In this document: positions 934-36,608 of the stretch, piece after piece
Numbering within the stretch: the stretch's first letter is position 1
How the letters are laid out: the number at the start of each line of letters is the position of its first letter
Assembly (NCBI GenBank): GCA_024691985.1
Contig: JAILNC010000085.1
Coordinates: 1-60,417 of the forward strand
DNA from: Oscillospiraceae bacterium
Lineage (GTDB): Bacteria; Bacillota; Clostridia; Oscillospirales; Oscillospiraceae
Direction: 5' to 3'
Length of the DNA stretch: 60,417 nucleotides
Notes under the pieces: model-generated
What the model was told of the DNA's origin: nothing
Databases searched by the model: none
The model's input: the letters and a program-made list of their open reading frames with translations, nothing else
Made by a program: the position numbers and the translations under genes

Positions 934-1844
934 CAGCGACCGCTCCTTTCAAGGCTGCGGGAGACGTCCCGCAGGCCGACCGTGAGGTCGCGGACCGTGA
1001 CGTCGAGGCGCTCGACGGTGCCGCGCAGGTTGTAGTTGAACTCGGAGAAGTCGCGCACGCCCTCGTTGAAGTTGTCCACGGTCTTGTTCATGGCGGCGAT
1101 GGGCGCGCGGCTGGAGGCAATGGCGGCTTTGAGCTCGTCGGTCGCGCTGCGCAGGGTGCGGTCCATGTTCTCGCTCGTGCGGTCGAGGGCCAGCACCATC
1201 TGGTGCACGAGATCGGCGTCGTCCTTCGGGGCCTCGGTGGGCAGGGTGGGGGCGACCTCATGGTCGAGCCAGAGCTCCAGGCTGGTCTCGAGCTTTTCGC
1301 GCGCGGCCTGCACGCTGAAGATGGAGCGCAGCAGCGTCAGCACGATGGCGCAGGCGACGCCCACCAGCGAGGTGTAGAAGGCCACGCCCATGCCGCTCAG
1401 GGCGGACATGAGGCCGCCGCCCACGCTGTCGAGGACGCTGAGCCACTCGGAGTTGTTGGTGAAGCCGAGCATCTCGGTCAGGGAGCTGACGGACAGGCTC
1501 AGGCCGAGGAAGGTGCCGAAGAGGCCGAGCGTGACGAAAAGCGACACGGCGTTGTTGAGAAAGCGCTCGCACAGGAGGCTCCCCGACAGCTTGACGCTGA
1601 CGCCGTTTGCGATGATGGCGGGCGTGTTGACGTCCTTGCCGTTGCGCTTGTAGGCCTCGGCATAGTCGTTGACGACGTAGCGCAGGAAGCCGTTGTCCCG
1701 CTTGAGCCCGCCGTTTACCAGCGAGGTGAGGCGGTTGTAGCGCGCGTAGGTGATGAACAGCAGCAGCACGGCCAGCACGAACAGCGACAGGATGACGACG
1801 ATGACCATCAGGCCGACGGGCGGAATGGAACTGAGATTGCTCAT
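933..1844 (-). CDS. MotA/TolQ/ExbB-family proton channel protein with cytoplasmic tail
   Basis: 303 residues. An N-terminal hydrophobic segment (about 10-32) is followed by a cytoplasmic stretch and then two further membrane segments (about 97-125 and 145-175). The latter contain TLGLFGTFLGLSLSV and GGGLMSALSGMGVAFYTSLVG, typical of MotA/TolQ channels. The last roughly 95 residues form a polar, heptad-like tail with repeated Leu/Val spacing. The family forms the pentameric ion channel around a MotB/TolR/ExbD dimer. It is the first gene of a two-gene operon read leftward, with a clear sigma-A promoter just upstream. Canonical flagellar MotA has four membrane helices and usually no such tail, so this is closer to TolQ-like or ZorA-like non-flagellar motors. 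Function unknown. Confidence 0.85.
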   Translation of the reverse strand: MSNLSSIPPVGLMVIVVILSLFVLAVLLLFITYARYNRLTSLVNGGLKRDNGFLRYVVNDYAEAYKRNGKDVNTPAIIANGVSVKLSGSLLCERFLNNAVSLFVTLGLFGTFLGLSLSVSSLTEMLGFTNNSEWLSVLDSVGGGLMSALSGMGVAFYTSLVGVACAIVLTLLRSIFSVQAAREKLETSLELWLDHEVAPTLPTEAPKDDADLVHQMVLALDRTSENMDRTLRSATDELKAAIASSRAPIAAMNKTVDNFNEGVRDFSEFNYNLRGTVERLDVTVRDLTVGLRDVSRSLERSGR

Positions 1845-1881
1845 GGCTTATCCCTCCGATACTCTTTGTATTTCTGTGTGG

Positions 1882-1910
1882 ATTTTATAATATTTACGAT
1901 TTGGTGTCAA
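1882..1910 (-). promoter_or_regulatory. sigma-A promoter of the MotA/MotB-like pair
   Basis: On the minus strand TTGACA (1910-1905) and TAAAAT (1887-1882) are separated by 17 bp, about 40 bp before the MotA-like start. The pepF stop codon at 1917 lies directly upstream, so the motor pair has its own promoter. Confidence 0.75.
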
Positions 1911-1916
1911 TAATTC

Positions 1917-3722
1917 TTAAGAAATGCTAAGGTTTTCCAGCTCCTCCACCAGCTCGCCGAAGAGCTTGAGCGCGGCGTTGACCGGCTCGGGCGTGCTCAT
2001 GTCGACGCCGGCGAGCTTCAGAAGCGAGATGGGGTCCATCGAGCAGCCGCCGGAGAGGAAGCGCTTGTAGTCCTCCACCGCCGGGGCGCCCAGCGTGAGG
2101 ATGCGCTCGGCGATGGCGGCCGCCGCGGAAAAACCGGTCGCATATTGATAGACGTAATAATTGTAGAAAAAGTGCGGGATCCTCGCCCATTCGAGAGAAA
2201 TTTTTTCGTCGCTGACCATGTCGGGGCCGAAGTAGCGCTTGTTGAGCGCGTAATACTTCTCACACAGCGCGTCGGCGGTGAGGGCCTCGCCCGCCTCGGC
2301 CATGCGGCCCATCTCCCGCTCGAACTCCGCGAACATGGTCTGGCGGTAGACCGTGGCCCGGAACTGGTCGAGGAAGTGGTTGAGCAGATAGGCCCGCTGC
2401 TTTTTATCCTCCGTTTTGTTCAGCAGATGCCGCATCAGCAGGATCTCGTTGCAGGTGGAGGCGACCTCCGCCACGAAGATGACATAGTCCGAGGTGCAGA
2501 CGGGCTGGTTCGCGCAGGAGTAGTGGCTGTGCAGGGCGTGGCCCATCTCGTGGGCGATCGTGAACAGGGAGTCGAGCGTGTCCTTGTGGTTGAGCAGCAC
2601 ATAGGGGTGCGGGCGTGCCGAGCCGGAGGAATAGGCGCCGGAGCGCTTGCCGCGGTTCTCGTACACGTCGATCCAGCGCTCGTCAAAGCCGCGGCGCAGC
2701 AGGGCGACGTAGTCCTCGCCCAGGACCGAGAGGGCCTCGAGCACGGTCTTTTTCGCCTCGTCGTAGGGGATCTTTGCCGCCGCGTCGGGCACGACCGGGG
2801 TCAAAACGTCGTACATGTGCAGCTCCTCCACGCCCAGCAGGCGCTTGCGCAGGGCAACATAGCGGTACATCTTGTCGAGGTTTTGGTGCACGGCCTCGAT
2901 GAGATTGTCGTATACGGCGACGGGCACCTCGTTTTCGTCCAGCGCCGCCTCGATCGTAGAGGAGTAGCGCCGCGCTCCGGCATAGAAGCGCAGGGTCTTG
3001 AACTGGGCGTCGAGCGTCGCGGCCACGGTGTTTTTGAGCGCGCCGTATCCGCTGTAAATATTGTCGAAGGTGCTCCTGCGCAGCGCGCGGTCCTGGCTCT
3101 CCATCAGCATGCCGTAGGTCCCGGCGGTGAGGGTGTGTGGCCTGCCTTCGCCGTCGACCGCGTCGTCAAAGCGCAGGTCGGCGTTTCGCAGGGCGGAGCC
3201 GATCGACTCCGGCCCCTCGGCGAGCTCGCCCATCGCGGCCAGAAGTTTCTCCTCCGGCGCGGAGAGGATGTGCGCGCGCTTGCGGCGGATGCGCTCGATG
3301 GGGCGGCGCCAGGTCTCGAGCGCGGGGCACTCGGCAAAAAAGCGCGCGAGCGTATCGTCGTCGATGGCGAGGATCTCGGGCGTGGCGAAGGCGGAGGCGC
3401 CCGCCGCGGCGACGACGCAGGCGGTCGCCTTGCTGCGCATGTCACGGTAAAAGCTGTCCGCCGTGTCCTGATCGCTCTTGCAGCCGGCAAAGCCCGTGAG
3501 CTTTTCGAGGCGCACGCCCAGCGCGTCGCAGAGCTTGAACCAGTCGAGCAGCCTGCCCGGCCGCTCGCCGAGCGTGCCCGCGTAGGCCGCGAGTTCGCCG
3601 GGGCAGTCCTTCAGCGCCCGGAGCTCCTGCGCCCAGGCCTTGTCGTCGGGGAAGAGAGCGCGCAGATCCCAGGTGAATTCCTCGGGGATCTCGCTGCGCT
3701 CGGGGATTTTCGTAACGTCCAT
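1917..3722 (-). CDS. pepF: oligoendopeptidase F (M3 family metallopeptidase)
   Basis: 601 residues from the ATG at 3722, which is preceded by TACGGAGG at good spacing; an upstream in-frame ATG at 3767 has no ribosome site. The N-terminal region (MDVTKIPERSEIPEEFTWDL) is typical of PepF. The M3 zinc site AHEMGHALHSHY (HEXXH) is near residue 389, followed by a Glu-rich helix (FVAEVASTCNE) that supplies the third zinc ligand. The enzyme is a cytoplasmic zinc peptidase that cleaves short peptides and contributes to peptide recycling. Length matches the family (about 600 residues). It stands alone, downstream of a 240-bp gap. Confidence 0.95.
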   Translation of the reverse strand: MDVTKIPERSEIPEEFTWDLRALFPDDKAWAQELRALKDCPGELAAYAGTLGERPGRLLDWFKLCDALGVRLEKLTGFAGCKSDQDTADSFYRDMRSKATACVVAAAGASAFATPEILAIDDDTLARFFAECPALETWRRPIERIRRKRAHILSAPEEKLLAAMGELAEGPESIGSALRNADLRFDDAVDGEGRPHTLTAGTYGMLMESQDRALRRSTFDNIYSGYGALKNTVAATLDAQFKTLRFYAGARRYSSTIEAALDENEVPVAVYDNLIEAVHQNLDKMYRYVALRKRLLGVEELHMYDVLTPVVPDAAAKIPYDEAKKTVLEALSVLGEDYVALLRRGFDERWIDVYENRGKRSGAYSSGSARPHPYVLLNHKDTLDSLFTIAHEMGHALHSHYSCANQPVCTSDYVIFVAEVASTCNEILLMRHLLNKTEDKKQRAYLLNHFLDQFRATVYRQTMFAEFEREMGRMAEAGEALTADALCEKYYALNKRYFGPDMVSDEKISLEWARIPHFFYNYYVYQYATGFSAAAAIAERILTLGAPAVEDYKRFLSGGCSMDPISLLKLAGVDMSTPEPVNAALKLFGELVEELENLSIS

Positions 3723-3778
3723 AAAAACCTCCGTATCGCAATTAAGATAGGTACGAGTATACCACAAGCCCGCATATA

Positions 3779-3807
3779 TTACTATGGGAGCTTTGCTCCC
3801 ATAGTAA
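3779..3807. terminator. perfect hairpin in the pepF / LysM-GH18 divergent gap
   Basis: ACTATGGGAGC and GCTCCCATAGT form a perfect 11-bp stem around a TTT loop. It lies upstream of both divergent genes, so it terminates neither, and its role is unknown. A second hairpin follows at about 3821-3850 (CAAAACC...GGTTTTG). Confidence 0.5.
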
Positions 3808-3861
3808 ATTTTTCAATGCGCCAAAACCTCGCCGCTCGTGCGGCAAGCGGTTTTGATGCGC

Positions 3862-3926
3862 AAAAATCCCCATGCGGCGCGAGCTTTCTCTCATCTCGGC
3901 GCTGCGATTGCCGCATGGGGATTTTT
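3862..3926. repeat. 17-bp perfect inverted repeat
   Basis: The 17 bases at 3862-3878 (AAAAATCCCCATGCGGC) are exactly reverse-complemented at 3910-3926, with a 31-base loop. The right arm ends in a T-run, so it could act as a terminator for rightward transcription, although no upstream rightward gene exists here. It sits only about 40 bp before the LysM-GH18 start and may be a small mobile palindrome or a leader structure. Confidence 0.6.
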
Positions 3927-3966
3927 TATGAATTCCTTATTAACAGTTTTCATAAAGGAGGACAAT

Positions 3967-5100
3967 ATGCAGATCGTGGAAGTCAAGGCGGGCGATACGC
4001 TCTGGGCGCTCTCCCGCCGCTGCCAGACGACCGTGGAGGCCCTGGCCTTCGACAATCAGATCGCGGACCCCGCGCGCCTGACGCCGGGGCAGACGCTCAT
4101 CGTGCCGGGCGGCAGCGGCTGCGCCCGCCGCAGCGCGGAGGTCAACGCCTACGCCTACCCGAACATCGCCCCCGCCGTGCTCGAGGAAGTGCTGCCGTAT
4201 CTGACGGCCCTGTGCCCCTTCTCCTGGCGCTTCACCGCCGGGGGAGAGCTGATCCCCCTCGCGGACGAGAGCCTGATCGTCTCGGCCTACGCCGCTGACG
4301 CCGCCCCGATGCTGACGCTCACGAACATAGGCGAGGGCGGAGGCTTCTCCTCCGAGCTCGGCCACGCGCTGCTGACGGACAAAGCCGTGCAGGACAACGT
4401 GCTCGAGGGCGTCGTCGCCGCCGTCCGGGAGCGCGATCTCTACGGCCTGAACCTCAATTTCGAGTATCTGCAGCCCTTTGACCGCGACGCCTACAGCGCC
4501 TTTGTCGCGCGCTGTGCCGAGCGCCTGCATCCGCTGGGCTGCCCGGTCTCCACCGCCATCGCCCCGAAGGAGAGCGCCGCGCAGGAGGGTTTTCTCTACG
4601 CGGCCCACGACTACGAGGCCCACGGCAAGTACGCCGACCGGGTCATCCTGATGACCTACGAGTGGGGCTACACCTTCGGCGCGCCGCAGGCGATCTCCCC
4701 GGTCGACCGCATCCGCCGCGTGCTGGACTACGCCGTGACGGTCATCCCGCGCCGGAAGCTCCTGCTCGGCCTTTCCAACTACGCCTACGACTGGACCCTG
4801 CCGTGGAAGCAGGGGACGGCGGCGCGCATCCTCTCGGACGCCGCGGCGGTGGAGCTGGCCGTCTCCCGCGGCGCGGTCATCCGTTTCGACGAGACGGCCG
4901 CCGCGCCCTGGTTTTCCTATACCGACGCCGAGGGCAAGGCGCACGTCGTCTGGTTCGAGGACGCGCGCAGCGTGCTCGCGAGACTGCGCCTCGTGGAGGA
5001 TTACGGTCTGGCGGGCGTCAGCATCTGGACGGCCAACCAGCGCAACCGCCCGCTGTTCAAGCTCCTCGAAAGCCTCTATAGCGTGGAGAAGCTGTTCTGA
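3967..5100 (+). CDS. LysM and GH18 domain protein (SleL/YaaH-type cortex-lytic glycosidase)
   Basis: 377 residues from the ATG at 3967 behind AAAGGAGG. Residues 1-45 are one LysM domain (VKAGDTLWALSRR ... LTPGQTLIVPGG). The remainder is a glycoside hydrolase 18 barrel of the spore-cortex YaaH/SleL group. The catalytic stretch LNLNFEYL is near residue 161, with Glu as acid/base and Asn where many GH18 enzymes have Asp. MTYEWGYTFGAPQAISPVDRI near residue 222 is typical of YaaH proteins. There is no signal peptide, which fits spore coat/cortex enzymes made in the mother cell. The usual role is hydrolysis of N-acetylglucosamine bonds in cortex fragments during germination. It has one LysM where many homologues have two. 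Confidence 0.88.
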   Translation: MQIVEVKAGDTLWALSRRCQTTVEALAFDNQIADPARLTPGQTLIVPGGSGCARRSAEVNAYAYPNIAPAVLEEVLPYLTALCPFSWRFTAGGELIPLADESLIVSAYAADAAPMLTLTNIGEGGGFSSELGHALLTDKAVQDNVLEGVVAAVRERDLYGLNLNFEYLQPFDRDAYSAFVARCAERLHPLGCPVSTAIAPKESAAQEGFLYAAHDYEAHGKYADRVILMTYEWGYTFGAPQAISPVDRIRRVLDYAVTVIPRRKLLLGLSNYAYDWTLPWKQGTAARILSDAAAVELAVSRGAVIRFDETAAAPWFSYTDAEGKAHVVWFEDARSVLARLRLVEDYGLAGVSIWTANQRNRPLFKLLESLYSVEKLF

Positions 5101-5204
5101 GAGTGTGGAGAGTGGAGATATGGTGTCCGCGAAGCGGACGATTACAATTGCGCCGCAGGCGCTCCACAATTCCACTCTCCACTCTCATAACTCCACTCTA
5201 TTCT
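5101..5204 (+). repeat. family A palindromic repeat, copy A1
   Basis: It begins at the base after the stop codon of the LysM-GH18 gene. Structure: outer GAGTGTGGAGAGTGGAG, hairpin GTCCGCGAAGCGGAC, spacer GATTACAATT, hairpin GCGCCGCAGGCGC, then CTCCACTCTCCACTCTC. The outer arms are complementary, so the whole unit can fold into a cruciform. Related copies are at about 11585, 13190 and 23507. Confidence 0.85.
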
Positions 5205-5215
5205 TATAATACCTC

Positions 5216-5244
5216 TTGCCAGTTTCAAGGGAAAAGCTTATAAT
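5216..5244 (+). promoter_or_regulatory. sigma-A promoter of the AAA+ ATPase gene
   Basis: TTGCCA (5216-5221), a 17-bp spacer, and a perfect TATAAT (5239-5244), 37 bp before the start codon. It lies just outside repeat A1. Confidence 0.75.
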
Positions 5245-5280
5245 AGCAGGCACGAAAGAAGATAGAAGGAGATGCCTGCC

Positions 5281-6720
5281 ATGCCCAGCACCTGGACGCG
5301 CACCCCGGACGAAGTCCACAAGACTTATATCGCCAATACCGACGTCTTTTACCGCAGCGGCGGTACGGGTCTCGCCAAGGAGCTCGACGAGTTCATGACC
5401 CGCTGCGCCCTGAATCTGTGGAGCAAGGGGGGCGGCATCACGCAGCGCCATGTGGATATGGCCAACGCCCTCTACTCGCGCGGCCAGCCCAAGCCGACGT
5501 GGATGCTCTGGTCGCTGACGGCCGCGATCTGCGAGAGCGACGTCTTCCTCCCGCCCGTGTTCTTCTGGAACCTGGCCGAGACCGACGCCAAGCGCGGCAG
5601 GGAGACTTCGCGCACCTTCATCCGCATGCTCACGAACATCCTGCTCTATCTGGCCGCGGTGGACGACGACGTGACCTATGAGGAGGCTGCCTTCATCACC
5701 GAGTGCACGGACAAGCTCACCGCCATCTGCGACACCACCGGCGTGCGCAAGAGCAAGGAGCCGCTCAACCCCCTGGACTTCGTCACCAGCAGCGAGCCGA
5801 GCTTCACCGAGAAGCACAAGGCCCAGACCCAGACCTCCGGCGGCGGGAATCCCGCCGAGGCCAAGACGGAAGAGAAGGTCGAAAAGCCCGATTTCGATGA
5901 GCTCATGGGCCAGCTCGAGTCCCTGGTGGGACTCGAGGAGGTCAAGCGCGACATCAAGAACCTCGTCAATCTGATGAAGGTCCGCAAGCTGCGCGAGGCC
6001 AACAATCTGCCCGTCCCGCCCATGAGCCTGCACATGGTCTTCATGGGCAACCCCGGCACCGGCAAGACCACGGTCGCGCGCATCGTCTCCGGTCTCTACG
6101 CCGCCATCGGCGTGCTGGAAAAGGGCCAGCTCGTGGAGGTGGACCGCTCCGGCCTCGTGGCGGGCTACGTGGGCCAGACCGCGCTCAAGACGCAGGAGGC
6201 CATCAAGAAGGCCCTCGGCGGCGTCCTGTTCATCGACGAGGCCTACTCCCTCTCCTCCGGCGGGGAGAACGACTTCGGCCGCGAGGCCATCGAGACCATC
6301 CTCAAGGCCATGGAGGACCACCGCAAAGAGCTGATCGTCATCGTCGCGGGCTACACCGGACCGATGGAGAAGTTCCTCAGCTCGAACCCCGGCCTGGAGT
6401 CCCGCTTCAACAAGTATTTCTTCTTCCCCGATTACAACGGCGAGCAGCTCATGGAGATCTTCCGCAGCCAGTGCAAAAAGAACGGCTACGTCCTCACCGA
6501 GGAGACCGAAAAGGCGGCGGTCGCGATGTTCACGGAGCTGTACGAGAACCGCAGCGACAACTTCGGCAACGGGCGCGACGTGCGCAACTGCTTCGAGGAC
6601 ATGGTCGTGCGCCAGTCCAACCGCGTGGCGCAGATGGAAAGCCCCACCCGGGACGACCTCATGGCGGTTCTGCCGGAGGATCTCGAGGATCCGGAAGAAG
6701 AGGAAAACGAAGAGGAATAA
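5281..6720 (+). CDS. TerB-like / AAA+ ATPase (CbbX/SpoVK type)
   Basis: 479 residues. ATG at 5281 is preferred over ATG at 5272 because AAGGAG abuts the latter and is 9 bp from the former. Residues about 110-160 (ILLYLAAVDDDVTYEEAAF) resemble a TerB helical domain. A Pro/Gly/Lys-rich linker follows, then a CbbX/SpoVK-type AAA+ module: LVGLEEVKRDIKNLV near 218, Walker A GNPGTGKTT near 258, pore-loop region GYVGQTALKT near 297, Walker B GGVLFIDEAYSL near 318. Relatives remodel protein complexes (CbbX on Rubisco, SpoVK in sporulation, EccA in type VII secretion), but the target here is unknown. The gene is monocistronic, with its own promoter and terminator. The acidic tail (EDPEEEENEEE) is notable. 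Confidence 0.85.
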   Translation: MPSTWTRTPDEVHKTYIANTDVFYRSGGTGLAKELDEFMTRCALNLWSKGGGITQRHVDMANALYSRGQPKPTWMLWSLTAAICESDVFLPPVFFWNLAETDAKRGRETSRTFIRMLTNILLYLAAVDDDVTYEEAAFITECTDKLTAICDTTGVRKSKEPLNPLDFVTSSEPSFTEKHKAQTQTSGGGNPAEAKTEEKVEKPDFDELMGQLESLVGLEEVKRDIKNLVNLMKVRKLREANNLPVPPMSLHMVFMGNPGTGKTTVARIVSGLYAAIGVLEKGQLVEVDRSGLVAGYVGQTALKTQEAIKKALGGVLFIDEAYSLSSGGENDFGREAIETILKAMEDHRKELIVIVAGYTGPMEKFLSSNPGLESRFNKYFFFPDYNGEQLMEIFRSQCKKNGYVLTEETEKAAVAMFTELYENRSDNFGNGRDVRNCFEDMVVRQSNRVAQMESPTRDDLMAVLPEDLEDPEEEENEEE

Positions 6721-31743: not shown

Positions 31744-31805
31744 CTGTTGCCTCCGGGCTGTCGGATGGTGTAAAATAAAGAAAAAGAATGACGGAGGGAA
31801 AAGCC

Positions 31806-33410
31806 ATGAAGATGACATTTCTCGGCGCCGCCCATGAGGTCACGGGGAGCTGCACCTATCTCGAGGTCGGCGACAAAAAGGGCCTTGTGGACTACGGCAT
31901 GGAGCAGGGGAAGGACCTGTTTGAAAACGAGCCCATCCCCGTCCCGCCTTCCGAGCTCGACTTCGTGCTGCTGACGCACGCGCACATCGACCACGCGGGC
32001 CTGCTGCCGCTGCTGTTCAAGCAGGGCTTCCGCGGCTCGGTATATACGAGCTCCGCCACGGTGCAGCTGTGCGACATCATGCTGCGCGACTCGGCCAATA
32101 TCCAGATCCAGGAGGCCGAGTGGCAGAACCGCCGCGCCAAGCGCTCCGGCGGGGACCCGGTCGAGCCGCTGTACGGTCTCGAGGACGTGGACGGCATCAT
32201 GGCGCGCATGATCCCCTGCCCCTACGACAAGATCGTGCAGGTCAACGACTGCGTGTCCATCCGCCTGACCGACGTCGGGCATCTGCTCGGCTCCGCCGCC
32301 ATCGAGATCTGGCTGCATGAGGACGGGCAGGAGCGCAAGATCTGCTTCTCGGGCGACATCGGCAACCGCGATCAGCCCATCCTGCGCGACCCGATGTTCG
32401 TCTCCGACGCGCAGTACCTGGTGATCGAATCCACCTACGGCGACAGGCTGCACAGCGAGACGCGCGTGGACTACGTCACGGAGCTTGCGCGGCGCATCCA
32501 GGAGACCCTGGACAGGGGCGGCAACGTGATCATCCCCTCCTTTGCCGTGGGCCGCACCCAGGAGATGCTCTACTTCCTGCGCGAGATCAAGGAGCGCGAG
32601 CTTGTCAAGGGACACGGGGCCTTCCCGGTCTATGTGGACAGCCCCCTGGCCGTCGAGGCCACCGGCATCTTCCTGCAGTGCGATACCTCCTTCCTGGACG
32701 AGGAGGCCCAGGAGCTCATGCGCGCCGGCGTCAACCCCATCTGGTTCGAGGGGCTGGAGCTCTCGGTCTCCAAGAACGACTCGCAGGCCATCAACGAAAA
32801 CCCCACCCCCAAGGTCATCCTCTCGGCCAGCGGCATGTGCGACGCGGGCCGTGTGCGCCACCATCTCAAGCACAACCTGTGGCGCCCGGAATCCAGCGTG
32901 CTCTTCGTGGGCTATCAGGCGGAGGGGACGCTCGGCCGCCTGCTGATCGACGGGGTCAAATCGGTCAAGCTCTTCGACGAGCTCATCGAGGTCAACGCCT
33001 CCATCGACGTGCTGCCCGGCGTCAGCGGCCACGCCGACAAGCAGGGGCTGCTCGACTGGCTGCAGGGCTTCGAGCGCAAGCCGGAGCTGGTCTTCGTCAA
33101 CCACGGCGACCCCGAGGTCGCCGACAGCTTCGCCGCCTGTTTGGAGCAGGAGTACGGCTACCGTGCTTACGCCCCCTACAGCGGCACCTGCTTCGACCTG
33201 CTGCGCGGCGAGTTCGACGTCGAGACCGAGGGCCGGGCCATCGAGCGCCGCGCCGCCGCCTCCACAAAGGCCGCGCGCCTCTACGGCGAGCTCGTCGCCG
33301 CGGGCGAGCGCCTGCTGAAGCTCTGCCGCGCGGCGGAGGGACGGCCCAACAAGGACCTCAGCCGCTGGGCGAAGGAGATCCTGAAGCTTGCGGACATCCT
33401 CGAAAAGTAA
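31806..33410 (+). CDS. MBL-fold / beta-CASP RNA metallohydrolase
   Basis: 534 residues from the ATG at 31806 (GGAGGG upstream). The zinc motif THAHIDHAG covers residues 57-65, followed by beta-CASP features: GDIGNRDQP near 183, IESTYGDR near 204, SASGMCDAGR near 344, and a terminal RMMBL-type VSGHADKQGLLDW near 402. It is a cytoplasmic enzyme of the YSH1/CPSF73-like type; bacterial members are thought to act as ribonucleases. It has an extended helical C-terminus beyond the usual length. Confidence 0.92.
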   Translation: MKMTFLGAAHEVTGSCTYLEVGDKKGLVDYGMEQGKDLFENEPIPVPPSELDFVLLTHAHIDHAGLLPLLFKQGFRGSVYTSSATVQLCDIMLRDSANIQIQEAEWQNRRAKRSGGDPVEPLYGLEDVDGIMARMIPCPYDKIVQVNDCVSIRLTDVGHLLGSAAIEIWLHEDGQERKICFSGDIGNRDQPILRDPMFVSDAQYLVIESTYGDRLHSETRVDYVTELARRIQETLDRGGNVIIPSFAVGRTQEMLYFLREIKERELVKGHGAFPVYVDSPLAVEATGIFLQCDTSFLDEEAQELMRAGVNPIWFEGLELSVSKNDSQAINENPTPKVILSASGMCDAGRVRHHLKHNLWRPESSVLFVGYQAEGTLGRLLIDGVKSVKLFDELIEVNASIDVLPGVSGHADKQGLLDWLQGFERKPELVFVNHGDPEVADSFAACLEQEYGYRAYAPYSGTCFDLLRGEFDVETEGRAIERRAAASTKAARLYGELVAAGERLLKLCRAAEGRPNKDLSRWAKEILKLADILEK

Positions 33411-33451
33411 TACTGTCTGAGAGGAAAAAAGAGGATTCCCGTCGTTTTTCG

Positions 33452-33480
33452 TTGACATAATACTCATGCTGTGTTACATT
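33452..33480 (+). promoter_or_regulatory. sigma-A promoter of the pseudokinase-lectin gene
   Basis: TTGACA (33452-33457), 17 bp, TACATT (33475-33480), 34 bp before the start. Confidence 0.7.
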
Positions 33481-33514
33481 GATAAATAGCTATCAGTACT
33501 CTTGGAGGCGCAGC

Positions 33515-35122
33515 ATGGTAAACCCGGTGTTTGAGCCCGAGAAAGCGTTGGGCGCAAAGCTTACACAGATGGACAGACAGGAGCTGTGCTCCTTCGTGTC
33601 GGCGCTGTGCCGCGCGGTCGTGAACGAGGTCGGCTCCCGCGGACGCCGCGGCGGGATCTATCCCGAGAATATCAGCACCGCCGCGGACGGCAGCATTGCC
33701 CTCGGCCCCGCGGGCAAGTCCCCCTGGGAGGGGCAGGAGCTCGACTTTGTGGCGCCGGAGCTGTACTGGAACGGCCAGCTCTCCGCCGCGTCGGACGTCT
33801 ACTCCGTCGGCATGCTGATGTACTACGCGCTCAGCGGCGGCAAGCTCCCGCTCGAGGACGAGGGCGAGGACGCCCAGCAGCGCCGCATGGCCGGCGGCAA
33901 TCCGCGCGCCCCCCAAAACGCCGGGAAGCGGCTCGGCGCGATCATCGAAAAATCCATCCGCTTCAAGGCCTCCGAGCGCTACCAGACGCTCGAGGAGCTG
34001 CGCGCCGTGGTCGACAGCTGCGTCAGGGATCTGTATCTCGGCGGCGTGTCGAGCGCCGAGGCCATCTTCAAAAAGGCCGCCGGCGAGCTGAGCGACGTGG
34101 AGCGGATGATGGTCGGCATCATCGACTGCGACGAAGACGAGGCCATCGCCTCGGCCGACGAGTTCCCCCTCGAGCCGCCCGAGGACGGCGTCAAGGTATA
34201 CAATCCCGCCCAGAAGGGCGGGCAGAAAGAGATCATCTCCGCCGCGCAGGCGCAGATGCTCTCCCAGAAGCTGCGGGGGGACTCCCCTCCCGCCGCTCCG
34301 AAGCGCAAGGCGGACGACGTGCTCACGCCCGTCACGCTCGAGCGCAGCAGCCCCGCGGTCCAGTACAAGCTGAAAACCGACCGAGAAAGGAAGATTGCTG
34401 AAGAGGTGAAAAAGCGCAGAAGAAGACCGCTCGCCGTCATACTGGTCCTGTGTGCGGTGCTGGTCATGGTGGCGATCATTATGAACGCCATGCTGAAGGA
34501 CTTTGAACAGGCGCGCTCCCAGACCGACAATCAGCTCGAGCCCGCCGGCGTCGACCCCTATTCCGCCACGATGGCCCCCACCGCGGACGATAACGGCTAT
34601 CCCATCTCGCAGGAGGACTTCGGCGCGCCGATGTCCGGGCCGAGCGTGACGATGGAGCCCGTCGAGATCCCCGAGATCGAGACGCCGAAGGAGCACGAGT
34701 ACAAGATCTTCAAGGACGACGTGAGCTGGACCGACGCCCAGAAGAAGTGCGAAGGCATGGGCGGCCATCTGGTCGTCATCGAGAACGCGGCGGAGCTGGA
34801 GCAGGTCATCGCGATGGCCGAGGCCGAAGGGATCAGCCGCGTCTGGATCGGCTGCCACCGCGGCGGCGACAGCTACGACGATCCCGAAAACCGTCCCTAC
34901 CTCTGGGAGGGCAAGGATCCGAGCTTCGAGGGCTACTTCCGCTGGGCCAAGGGCGAGCCGACCTATGTCGACAACGACGACACCGGCCGCCATGATGAGG
35001 ATTATATCATGCTGTGGGATCACAACGGCTGGGCCTACAACGACAACCGCGACGATCCCTGCCACGACTATCCCGAGTTCTATTCCGGCACGATGGGCTA
35101 CGTCTGTGAGTTCAACGACTGA
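33515..35122 (+). CDS. membrane pseudokinase with external C-type lectin domain
   Basis: 535 residues. Residues about 20-175 resemble only the C-lobe of a protein kinase: YPENIST near 49 (HRDxxxxN loop without His and Asp), no DFG, APELYW at 80, SDVYSVGMLMYYALSGG near 93 and a final RFKASERYQTLEEL. The glycine loop, ATP Lys and catalytic Asp are missing, so it should be inactive. A linker and basic stretch precede one membrane helix near 305-328. A Pro/Glu-rich stalk leads to a C-type lectin-like domain (about 395-535; WTDAQKKCEGMGGHLVVIENAAE ... WIGCHRGG ... GYVCEF). It is predicted to sense an external ligand and signal through a kinase-like scaffold. I know of no named system with this layout. 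Confidence 0.78.
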   Translation: MVNPVFEPEKALGAKLTQMDRQELCSFVSALCRAVVNEVGSRGRRGGIYPENISTAADGSIALGPAGKSPWEGQELDFVAPELYWNGQLSAASDVYSVGMLMYYALSGGKLPLEDEGEDAQQRRMAGGNPRAPQNAGKRLGAIIEKSIRFKASERYQTLEELRAVVDSCVRDLYLGGVSSAEAIFKKAAGELSDVERMMVGIIDCDEDEAIASADEFPLEPPEDGVKVYNPAQKGGQKEIISAAQAQMLSQKLRGDSPPAAPKRKADDVLTPVTLERSSPAVQYKLKTDRERKIAEEVKKRRRRPLAVILVLCAVLVMVAIIMNAMLKDFEQARSQTDNQLEPAGVDPYSATMAPTADDNGYPISQEDFGAPMSGPSVTMEPVEIPEIETPKEHEYKIFKDDVSWTDAQKKCEGMGGHLVVIENAAELEQVIAMAEAEGISRVWIGCHRGGDSYDDPENRPYLWEGKDPSFEGYFRWAKGEPTYVDNDDTGRHDEDYIMLWDHNGWAYNDNRDDPCHDYPEFYSGTMGYVCEFND

Positions 35123-35133
35123 CGCCGGGACAT

Positions 35134-35180
35134 AAAAGAAACTGCCTCAAAATGCGATGCATTTTGAGGCAGTTTCTTTT
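35134..35180. terminator. long perfect bidirectional terminator
   Basis: A 22-bp perfect stem (AAAAGAAACTGCCTC ... GAGGCAGTTTCTTTT) with a three-base loop. It serves the pseudokinase gene on the plus strand and the GG-leader gene on the minus strand. Confidence 0.92.
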
Positions 35181-35188
35181 GCTTTTTT

Positions 35189-35455
35189 TCAGAGCTCGAC
35201 GGCGCCGGTGTTCACAGAGCCGGTGACGCCGCATCTGCAGGCCGTCAAGGGCTTGCCGCATTTGGGGCAGCGCCTGACGCCGCCCTGCAGCGTGGTGGCC
35301 TGAAGGCCCGCGCCCGGGATCACGGTCTGCTCCAGCGTCACGCCGGTCGCCCCGCTGCCGGAGCCGCCGATCAGATAGTTCAGCGAGAAGCCGCCGATCA
35401 CCTGTCCCATTTCGTCGTCCGACAGGGCGATCTTATCCTGTTCCTTAAATGCCAT
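35189..35455 (-). CDS. small protein with double-glycine leader and Cys-rich tail
   Basis: 88 residues, with GGAGG 8 bp before ATG. The N-terminus LSDDEMGQVIGG (about 11-22) matches the double-glycine leader pattern of peptides exported by C39-peptidase ABC transporters. After the GG come a Gly/Ser/Thr-rich stretch and a zinc-ribbon-like CPKCGKPLTACRC near 63-75. It might be a secreted RiPP or bacteriocin-like precursor, or a small zinc protein with a leader-like start. No C39 transporter or modifying enzyme is adjacent. It is 52 bp downstream of the ATPase-HATPase gene, on the same strand. Confidence 0.6.
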   Translation of the reverse strand: MAFKEQDKIALSDDEMGQVIGGFSLNYLIGGSGSGATGVTLEQTVIPGAGLQATTLQGGVRRCPKCGKPLTACRCGVTGSVNTGAVEL

Positions 35456-35507
35456 CTTATGTTCCTCCGTTCAAAAGAAAGTTTATCATGTTGCCGTTCT
35501 TCACGCG

Positions 35508-36608
35508 TTATCCGCCTTCGGCCCTGATATGCAGGCGCAGCTGATTGGGCAGGGTATGCGCGTCGTCCCAGCTGTATTCCATTTCCGACTCCGTGCTCGT
35601 CAGCACCGCCAGCGCAAGCTCGTCGCCGCCCTGCGTCACATCCAGCTTCGGCCCGTTGTAGCGCACGGTCATCCACACGCTCTCCGCCTCCTCGGCGGAT
35701 TCGACGGTGATCTCCGCCTTCGGGTCGGTAAGTCTCGGCAGCAGCAGAACCTGGGTCAGCTCCTCAAAGGCCAGACGTACGCGCTGCGCCGTCTTGTACG
35801 GGATCTGGCTGCGGCTGCAGTATTGCTCGATCCGGCCGGCCATGGCGAGGAAGTCGAAGTCCCTGCCGCCGACGTCCAGCTCCAGCACCTTGAGCTTCCG
35901 CACGAAGCGGCGGGTCTTCTCCTTCTGCGGATCGTCGAAGATCTGCTCCGGCGTCCCTTCCTCGTAGATGCCGCCCTCGTCCATGTAGAAGACGCGGCTG
36001 CAGATCGCGCGGGCGAAGTTCATCTCGTGCGTGACGATCAGCATGGTCTTGCCGCTCTTCGCCAGGTCCCGGATGACGGCCTGCACCTCGCCCACCATGG
36101 TGGGGTCGAGGGCGCTGGTCGGCTCGTCCAGCAGGAGGATGTCCGGATCCATCGCCAGCGCCCGGGCGATGGCGACGCGCTGCTTCTGGCCGCCGGAGAG
36201 CTCGTCCGGGTAGTGCAGGGCCTTTTCGGCGAGGCCCACCGTGCGCAGCAGGCGCATGCCCTCGTCATAGGCCTCCTGCTTCGACCTGCCCAGCAGGTCC
36301 ATCGGGCCCAGCATGATGTTCTCGATCGCCGTCATGTGGCCGAAGAGGTTGAAGGACTGGAAGACCATGCCCATCCTCCGGCGCACCCGGCCGAGATCGC
36401 ATTCCGGGTCGGTGATCTCCTCATCGTCGATCCAGATGTGCCCCGCCGTCGGCTTTTCCAGCAGGTTCAGACAGCGCAGGAACGTGCTCTTGCCCGTTCC
36501 GGACGGGCCGATCACGGAGATCACGTCGCCGTCGTTGATGACGGCGTTCACGTCCCTGAGGGGCGTCGCCTCGGGGTAGGCCTTCTGCAAATGCTCGATC
36601 CTAAGCAT
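35508..36608 (-). CDS. GlnQ-type ABC ATPase fused to a HATPase-like domain
   Basis: 366 residues. Residues 1-240 are a polar-amino-acid ABC ATPase: Walker A GPSGTGKST, Q-loop VFQSFNLFGHMTAIEN, LSGGQKQR, ILLLDEPTSALDP. Residues about 262-366 (RIEQYCSRSQIPYKTAQRV, RLAFEELTQVLLLPRL) resemble the start of a GHKL/RsbW-type ATPase domain, although the N-box Asn is absent. GlnQ proteins normally end near 245 residues. The extra domain might bind nucleotide or regulate uptake. It overlaps the fused binding-permease gene by 8 bp. Confidence 0.82.
   Translation of the reverse strand: MLRIEHLQKAYPEATPLRDVNAVINDGDVISVIGPSGTGKSTFLRCLNLLEKPTAGHIWIDDEEITDPECDLGRVRRRMGMVFQSFNLFGHMTAIENIMLGPMDLLGRSKQEAYDEGMRLLRTVGLAEKALHYPDELSGGQKQRVAIARALAMDPDILLLDEPTSALDPTMVGEVQAVIRDLAKSGKTMLIVTHEMNFARAICSRVFYMDEGGIYEEGTPEQIFDDPQKEKTRRFVRKLKVLELDVGGRDFDFLAMAGRIEQYCSRSQIPYKTAQRVRLAFEELTQVLLLPRLTDPKAEITVESAEEAESVWMTVRYNGPKLDVTQGGDELALAVLTSTESEMEYSWDDAHTLPNQLRLHIRAEGG

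Follow-up and report, generated by a model that had tools for sequence, protein, structure and literature searches.

Results

Gene and protein layout

The window analysed here, a stretch of 60,417 nucleotides from an Oscillospiraceae bacterium (assembly GCA_024691985.1, contig JAILNC010000085.1, hereafter C48), carries on its forward strand a gene for a membrane protein in which one lobe of a Hanks-type kinase is joined to a C-type lectin domain. The coding sequence occupies 33515..35122, as an initial annotation of the sequence had placed it, with an ATG at 33515 and a stop codon at 35120-35122; it encodes 535 amino acids (aa) and has orthologues. From its N-terminus the protein consists of the half-kinase, a charged cytoplasmic linker, a basic run, a membrane helix, a stalk and the lectin domain. 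The half-kinase (residues 6-172; 33530..34030) is a pseudokinase of the C-lobe only, in which helix alphaE, a degenerate catalytic loop (R45 G46 G47), an APE motif (80-82), the alphaF aspartate (Asp94) and Arg155 can be recognised, and it is followed by a conserved juxtamembrane motif, AExIFxK...ELSDxERMMxxII (residues 180-204; 34052..34126). Read from the sequence, the run KKRRRR (299-304) and a single membrane helix (~306-327) together span residues 299-327 (34409..34495), and the stalk, which is variable in alignment, residues 328-389 (34496..34681). The lectin domain (residues 390-535; 34682..35119) contains the putative Ca2+-site residues E481, T483, E495, N509 and D510 and the cysteine pair C412/C531.

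Pfam models matched above cut-off at both ends of the protein, Lectin_C over residues 403-481 (6.3e-7) and PK_Tyr_Ser-Thr over residues 76-157 (2.9e-6), while Pkinase (6.6e-4) fell under its cut-off. The single helix, stalk and lectin domain that had been annotated are all present. Since basic residues flanking a membrane helix stay cytoplasmic (the positive-inside rule), the KKRRRR run ahead of the helix places the half-kinase inside and the lectin domain outside the cell. A rough hydropathy scan found exactly one hydrophobic segment in 62 of 72 further family members, and because the same architecture was found in dozens of genomes, the layout of half-kinase plus lectin is more than chance.

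A kinase C-lobe without its partner lobe

A profile of the intracellular domain built from 29 relatives, compared with solved structures, matched best to residues 112-279 of 3f61, which we take to be Mycobacterium tuberculosis PknB (E 1.2e-13), and similarly to StkP; this range runs from alphaE to the end of the C-lobe. The AlphaFold2 model of the intracellular half (pLDDT 84.3, pTM 0.78) is mainly helical and has no N-lobe sheet, and the best 50 PDB matches listed by Foldseek are all kinases (best E 4.8e-8), so that the structure prediction which the initial annotation had proposed as a check, and which would have told against it without a kinase fold, returned the fold of a kinase C-lobe. 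The motifs on which that annotation had relied are in place (APE at 80-82, DVYSVG at 94-99), as are the absences it had reported. The N-lobe is missing, the profile match beginning within the C-lobe; the HRD position reads R45-G46-G47; and the DFG stretch is L63-G64-P65-A66-G67, where HMMER leaves the Asp-Phe of PknB unmatched. None of the features of an active Hanks-type kinase (glycine-rich loop and VAIK Lys of the N-lobe, HRD Asp, DFG) was found, and all of those of a kinase-like C-lobe (APE, alphaF Asp, the Arg partner of the APE Glu, a helical C-lobe fold) were. The term 'pseudokinase' therefore holds in that the fold is that of a catalytically degenerate kinase, but the domain is a single lobe and not a whole pseudokinase.

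Conservation was counted over 94 distinct C-lobes, obtained from 101 aligned rows by merging identical ones. The catalytic position is Asp in none (Gly in 74, Asn in 7, Ala in 7, another residue in 6), while the Pro (P81) and Glu (E82) of APE, D94 and R155 are each invariant (94/94); in kinases the Arg at the place of R155 normally pairs with the APE Glu. G46 (93/94), G64 (92/94) and N52 (88/94) are also conserved. Position 65 of the window protein, one possible place of the DFG Asp given that the alignment of this motif is uncertain, is Asp in 6/94, and within the stretch searched a D-(F/L/Y/I)-(G/S) string occurs in 3/72 family open reading frames (ORFs), as DYS or DLS. Because P81, E82, D94 and R155 are invariant where the catalytic Asp is absent, the structural core of the C-lobe is, judged by these residues, retained and the active site is not.

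We rejected the possibility that an N-lobe had been overlooked, or lost to a frameshift or assembly error. The ATG lies just 104 bp beyond the upstream stop codon, this space is occupied by a promoter, and the same truncation recurs in 94 distinct sequences. Among the 72 family ORFs, ten have 64-123 residues ahead of the C-lobe; on inspection by eye none of these extensions is N-lobe-like, eight are acidic and rich in Glu, Pro and Ala, and those of L221 and L274 resemble sequence upstream of a later Met start.

The lectin ectodomain

The extracellular half was modelled by AlphaFold2 with pLDDT 93.3 and pTM 0.88, and the best 50 Foldseek matches listed are all C-type lectin domains, led by carbohydrate-recognition domain 4 (CRD4) of the mannose receptor (1.2e-7) and including CEL-I, dectin-2, ASGR1, DCIR and CD23. 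A profile built from 28 relatives matched CD205, the mannose receptor, CD23 and selectins in the PDB, so that Pfam, profile and fold searches all return the C-type lectin (CTLD) fold. The initial annotation had named an FGE-sulfatase-type fold as the identity that would tell against a lectin; we rejected it, FGE-sulfatase being absent both from the Pfam matches at E up to 1 and from the best 50 Foldseek matches listed.

The residues of Ca2+ site 2, presumably E-P-N/S, E and N-D, correspond in the window protein to E481-P482-T483, E495 and N509-D510. Of the 84 distinct lectin domains that belong to the C-lobe group, 76 have equivalents of all four of E481, E495, N509 and D510; among the eight without the full set, five come from a single genus whose ectodomains are SH3-type. 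At the last place of the EPN motif 81/84 have Ser or Thr and none has Asn. Elsewhere in the order 28 lectin domains were compared, several of them truncated: 15 have Asn at that place and 13 have all four ligands. The four ligands are also complete in six of nine domains of a kinase-less lectin group (eight kinase-less proteins and one lipoprotein-like). C412 and C531 correspond to the canonical C1-C4 disulfide pair, and across the 84 domains their equivalents occur together (both in 55, neither in 21, one only in 8; Fisher p 1.9e-12, ignoring the relatedness of the sequences). An extra loop in the lectin alignment is confined to the window protein and L068.

Distribution of the family

The initial annotation had described a single protein, which is real but is one member of a family. 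Besides the window's own genome, 35/36 from the genus contain a match at E <1e-10, as opposed to 0/23 genomes from other families of the order. The half-kinase is present in 27 of the 35 (28/36 with the window), and the remaining 8/36 encode a shorter lectin protein without it, in open frames of 318-428 aa; in the lectin tree these kinase-less forms fall, with weak support, at two or more separate positions within the kinase-bearing forms. Across the taxonomic family, 95/400 genomes match at 1e-30. Besides the window we analysed 72 loci with a best row better than 1e-43 (69 from the family scan and three from the order scan), leaving out 22 weaker matching genomes (E worse than 1e-43), of which one is a short fragment and the rest start no earlier than profile position 14. 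The C-lobe-only ORFs, 72 in all, span 20 of the 106 genera sampled, and 65 of the 66 complete ones contain a lectin domain at E <1e-5; in the exception the ectodomain is interrupted by unread residues. Because the search profile was derived from lectin-bearing proteins, relatives with other ectodomains may be under-sampled. Order-wide, 15/394 genomes match at 1e-30, of which four, including that of the window, are C-lobe-only. The closest relatives are metagenome-assembled genomes of Oscillospiraceae, Ruminococcaceae, Clostridia or Eubacteriales, several from the gut of goat, sheep or roe deer. Half-kinase lectin receptors are thus a conserved and widespread family, broader than first claimed.

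Relatives bracketing the half-kinase design

Kinase and lectin domains were also found together in proteins that retain both lobes. L173:1429-2883 (-) and L175:436-1872 (+), from another family of the same taxonomic order, encode full kinases (HRDVKPAN; Pkinase 4e-31 and 1.5e-33) followed by one membrane helix, seen by eye, and a C-type lectin domain (Lectin_C 1e-13 and 2e-13). The combination of kinase and lectin as such is accordingly not unique. L173 and L175 group with other kinases, and because both of their domains fall in branches apart from the half-kinase family, they probably represent an independent fusion; descent of the family from such active kinase-lectin proteins is unsupported by the trees. 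The phylogenies suggest that kinases and lectins were fused more than once.

Other relatives vary the design. L111 contains two adjacent full-length degenerate kinases without HRD (1545-3740 and 3798-5714, +), of which the first or second has a C-type lectin domain and its neighbour a weak SH3 match below cut-off, and L107:7794-9179 (+) is a C-lobe-only remnant followed by several membrane helices. SH3 domains accompany the C-lobe in L097 and L099 (Pfam) and, by eye, in L098 and L267, and L268-L272, which share the genus of L267, are counted with them; some of the SH3-bearing proteins have a weak lectin match too, mostly without the Ca2+-site residues. L192:1369-2430 (-) appears, by eye and profile, to place the same lectin ectodomain and one membrane helix behind a different cytoplasmic head with a zinc-ribbon-like start. 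Just downstream of the half-kinase receptor, L058:2215-3033 (-) and L079:9953-10771 (+), two records of apparently the same genome, encode another lectin protein, whose signal sequence is lipoprotein-like. A 750-aa ORF of L199 (-) encodes a full-length kinase with HGN for HRD and, by eye, a PASTA-like ectodomain, and is possibly a PASTA pseudokinase.

Selection and the juxtamembrane motif

In eight within-genus pairs, which share sequences, the ratio of nonsynonymous to synonymous substitution rates (dN/dS) of the C-lobe lies between 0.076 and 0.248 throughout, which indicates purifying selection within the genus and rules out a pseudogene. The lectin domain gives 0.026-0.19 in six pairs, and 0.56 and 0.74 for the window against L073 and L069; in those last two comparisons it is far above the half-kinase (0.19-0.25). 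The C-lobe has the lower ratio in 5/8 pairs and the lectin domain in 3/8.

The juxtamembrane motif persists near the N-terminus of the kinase-less relatives, close to the start in 7/8 cases (E 1e-6 to 6e-3), although G031 has it in a frame of its own; none was found in G014. In a search of eight genomes no other protein matches the motif at E <0.1.

Promoter and genomic context

The gene has its own promoter, as had been proposed, TTGACA-17-TACATT with a TG-containing extended -10 (33452..33480, +; 10/12 consensus positions). Promoter-like sites in 33300-35600 number four on both strands together, against 0.4 in shuffles, and a comparable pair is present in each of 22 orthologous spacers. Over all 23 spacers the -35 element is TTGAC(A/G) in 21 and TTTACG in two, the spacing is 17-18, and the pair lies 42-112 bp ahead of the chosen start codon. 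The best scores are 8-10 of 12, with a mean of 9.35 against 6.86 for base-shuffled spacers, and from 1 to 92 of 500 shuffles per spacer reach the observed score. Downstream, a terminator-like 20-bp stem with a T tail (35134..35180, +) is represented by three nested matches to one site, with a mean of 1.7 sites in the region in shuffles. It is followed by an 88-aa ORF on the reverse strand (35189-35455) that opens with a leader-like segment containing GG and has a CxxC...CxC motif; there is no NCBIfam match to it.

The initial annotation had noted no linked active kinase, and we found no other kinase and no FHA or PP2C gene on C48. Elsewhere in this genome, which is 79% complete, there are 12 further places for kinases, five for FHA and three for PP2C, all on other contigs; C87 and C11 encode FHA proteins. 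C53 encodes what is by eye a PASTA kinase, with an adjacent PP2C match.

Directly upstream lies a gene for a beta-CASP metallo-hydrolase or nuclease (31788-33410, +), whose best NCBIfam models, both under cut-off, are type VII CRISPR Cas14 (399.7 bits, cut-off 800) and aCPSF1 (296.3 bits, cut-off 580.2). This gene stands directly upstream in 23/28 C-lobe-bearing genomes of the genus and in 0/8 kinase-less ones (one of which has only 235 bp upstream); in six of those eight, and in G025, the nuclease is found elsewhere. Its downstream neighbours there are other genes, which by eye encode pyruvate:ferredoxin oxidoreductase or a ribosomal-protein methyltransferase. Within the family sample, 13/72 loci, from three genera, have the nuclease gene immediately upstream, and in two loci of a fourth it lies ~1.2 kb away.

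Nor does the gene appear to belong to a mobile element or a defence system. No relative was confirmed in viral contigs; phages and plasmids gave a single partial match each, on the lectin side. Most PADLOC matches, and the kinase-model matches of NCBIfam, cover the generic kinase C-lobe, those of NCBIfam far under cut-off.

Discussion

As a hypothesis for the function of this family, we propose, with modest confidence, a single-pass receptor in which the lectin domain is the sensor, probably of glycans with Ca2+, and the half-kinase a docking platform. Outside the cell, the lectin domain on its flexible stalk would bind its ligand, which is most likely a glycan and would be held by a bound Ca2+, as the Ca2+-site residues indicate; their conservation makes glycan sensing plausible. 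The Hanks-type Ser/Thr kinase inside the cell is reduced to its helical C-lobe and should not phosphorylate because both sequence and model are without an ATP lobe, catalytic Asp and DFG. C-lobe and juxtamembrane motif would most likely provide docking surfaces for a cytoplasmic protein, perhaps an active kinase or its substrates, and on binding its ligand the receptor would cluster or shift position and thereby change the docked partner. A scaffolding role is suggested by the absence of the catalytic Asp from all 94 C-lobes in which P81, E82, D94 and R155 never vary. Since the gene has its own promoter, the partner is probably encoded elsewhere in the genome, and the 12 other kinase places, including the PASTA-like kinase on C53, are candidates.

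Several points weigh against this proposal. Ligand and docking partner are both hypothetical. The second (C2-C3) canonical disulfide of C-type lectins is lacking: Tyr takes the place of C2 (EDY), and the alignment shows no conserved C3. Because of this, and because EPS or EPT replaces EPN, sugar specificity cannot be deduced from the sequence and a protein ligand is possible. The Ca2+-site Asn is replaced by Trp in three of the nine domains of the kinase-less group. The kinase-less form itself, in 8/36 matching genus genomes, makes the half-kinase dispensable there. Support for the C-lobe-only clade is modest when the C-lobe tree is midpoint-rooted (0.68, rising to 0.968 with the L111 pair), and the C-lobe-only L107 falls outside it. 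On the question of sugars, DCIR, which also has EPS, is described as binding them (PMC11624271).

The same kinase-less genomes would be expected if the protein were an adhesin or substrate-capture lectin anchoring the cell to fibre, mucin or other cells, with the half-kinase a passive anchor or leftover. The lower dN/dS of the lectin domain in 3/8 pairs and the neighbouring lipoprotein-like lectin protein of one genome (L058:2215-3033) point the same way. We nevertheless think this unlikely: the low dN/dS of the C-lobe in every pair (below that of the lectin domain in 5/8) and its invariant residues across 94 sequences are unlike a leftover, and the juxtamembrane motif persists in 7/8 of the kinase-less cases. 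It is similarly improbable, in our estimation, that the lectin domain reads polymers of the cell's own wall and feeds a PASTA-kinase pathway, in the manner of mycobacterial MviN. This would agree with the SH3 repeats of some C-lobe-only relatives (L097 and L099 by Pfam, L267 by eye), with the PASTA-like kinase and adjoining PP2C match in the same genome, and with the link that MviN makes between a pseudokinase, a carbohydrate-binding domain and the control of wall synthesis (PMC12599244). On the other hand, among the window proteins scanned, which were not all of them, there is no linkage to wall genes, and the pseudokinase of MviN, as the source describes it, has an N-lobe and belongs to a larger membrane protein required for peptidoglycan synthesis.

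A partnership with the upstream beta-CASP nuclease, for example in the control of RNA turnover, seems to us very improbable. Same-strand adjacency in most C-lobe-bearing genomes of the genus, and its recurrence in the family sample, speak for it. The half-kinase gene, however, is preceded by its own promoter; no upstream match was seen in 16/20 genera (mostly with ~1.5-2 kb covered, less at contig ends); the nuclease occurs without a half-kinase gene beside it in G025 and elsewhere in 6/8 kinase-less genomes; and two of the five C-lobe genomes in which the genes are not adjacent are without such a nuclease at E 1e-100. As the adjacency is lineage-specific and the promoter separate, a functional operon was rejected.

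Bacterial transmembrane pseudokinases are already known, and the C-lobe-only form with a lectin domain would be a variant of them. A survey of bacterial kinases (PMC12599244) names 42 families, of which seven (ActPs1-3, GLW, CP1, DYD and DLHK) are wholly or largely pseudokinase, and the pseudokinases it reviews carry the N-lobe ATP motif, intact or degraded. The seven families, for which a degraded N-lobe ATP motif is tabulated, are by these descriptions set apart from the window half-kinase, which has no N-lobe, and the family sections contain no C-lobe-only or lectin-bearing family, the words 'lectin' and 'C-lobe' having no occurrence in its text. Pseudokinase scaffolding is described there for MviN and EssB/YukC. 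M. tuberculosis MviN (ActPs3) resembles the window protein as a membrane protein with a dead kinase inside and a carbohydrate-binding domain, which acts by recruitment, but its N-lobe makes dimer contacts, it is essential for peptidoglycan synthesis, and its carbohydrate-binding domain is not termed a C-type lectin in the passage concerned (PMC12599244). EssB/YukC is likewise a membrane pseudokinase of Firmicutes and a scaffold, but one of type VII secretion, with a degraded glycine-rich loop (that is, an N-lobe) and no lectin domain mentioned in the parts of the survey that treat it (PMC12599244).

Among active kinases, PknB, PrkC and StkP share the succession of kinase, helix and ectodomain, and PknB and StkP are among the best solved matches of the C-lobe profile; they differ in having both lobes, the catalytic residues and a PASTA ectodomain. 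L173 and L175 come closer, with kinase, one helix and C-type lectin domain, but the kinase is complete. The variable proteins of cyanobacterial diversity-generating retroelements (DGRs) also combine Hanks-type kinase motifs with a C-type-lectin-like (CLec) fold; they are diversified by retroelements and are described as kinases with motifs I-IX, and the term 'pseudokinase' is unused in that text (PMC7517822). At our locus, no direct repeat >21 nt was reported in 32900-35600. With animal C-type lectin receptors (mannose receptor, CD23, DCIR, ASGR1) the window protein shares the fold and Ca2+-site residues, its Ser/Thr position as in the EPS of DCIR; it differs in being bacterial, in lacking the second disulfide and in being joined to a half-kinase. 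Among the papers listed in a literature search of titles and the beginnings of abstracts, which covered few subscription journals and no bioRxiv preprints, none describes a bacterial pseudokinase with a C-type lectin domain or a C-lobe-only pseudokinase receptor, and to that extent the design appears undescribed, as had been supposed.

The protein is thus probably a surface sensor that signals without catalysis. What sets the family apart is the conservation of one kinase lobe alone, together with a lectin ectodomain, in 20 genera, which makes the role of a kinase C-lobe without its ATP lobe directly testable; kinase-less relatives, SH3-bearing relatives and an apparently independent active kinase-lectin fusion supply a series for comparison. 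A wider and tentative reading is that the C-lobe-only kinase is a signalling module in its own right, through which Ca2+-dependent lectin receptors of gut bacteria pass glycan recognition across the membrane, docking and steering active kinases in trans. If the proposal is true, Clostridia of the gut and rumen would own a receptor that uses the sensor domain which animals employ for microbial glycans.

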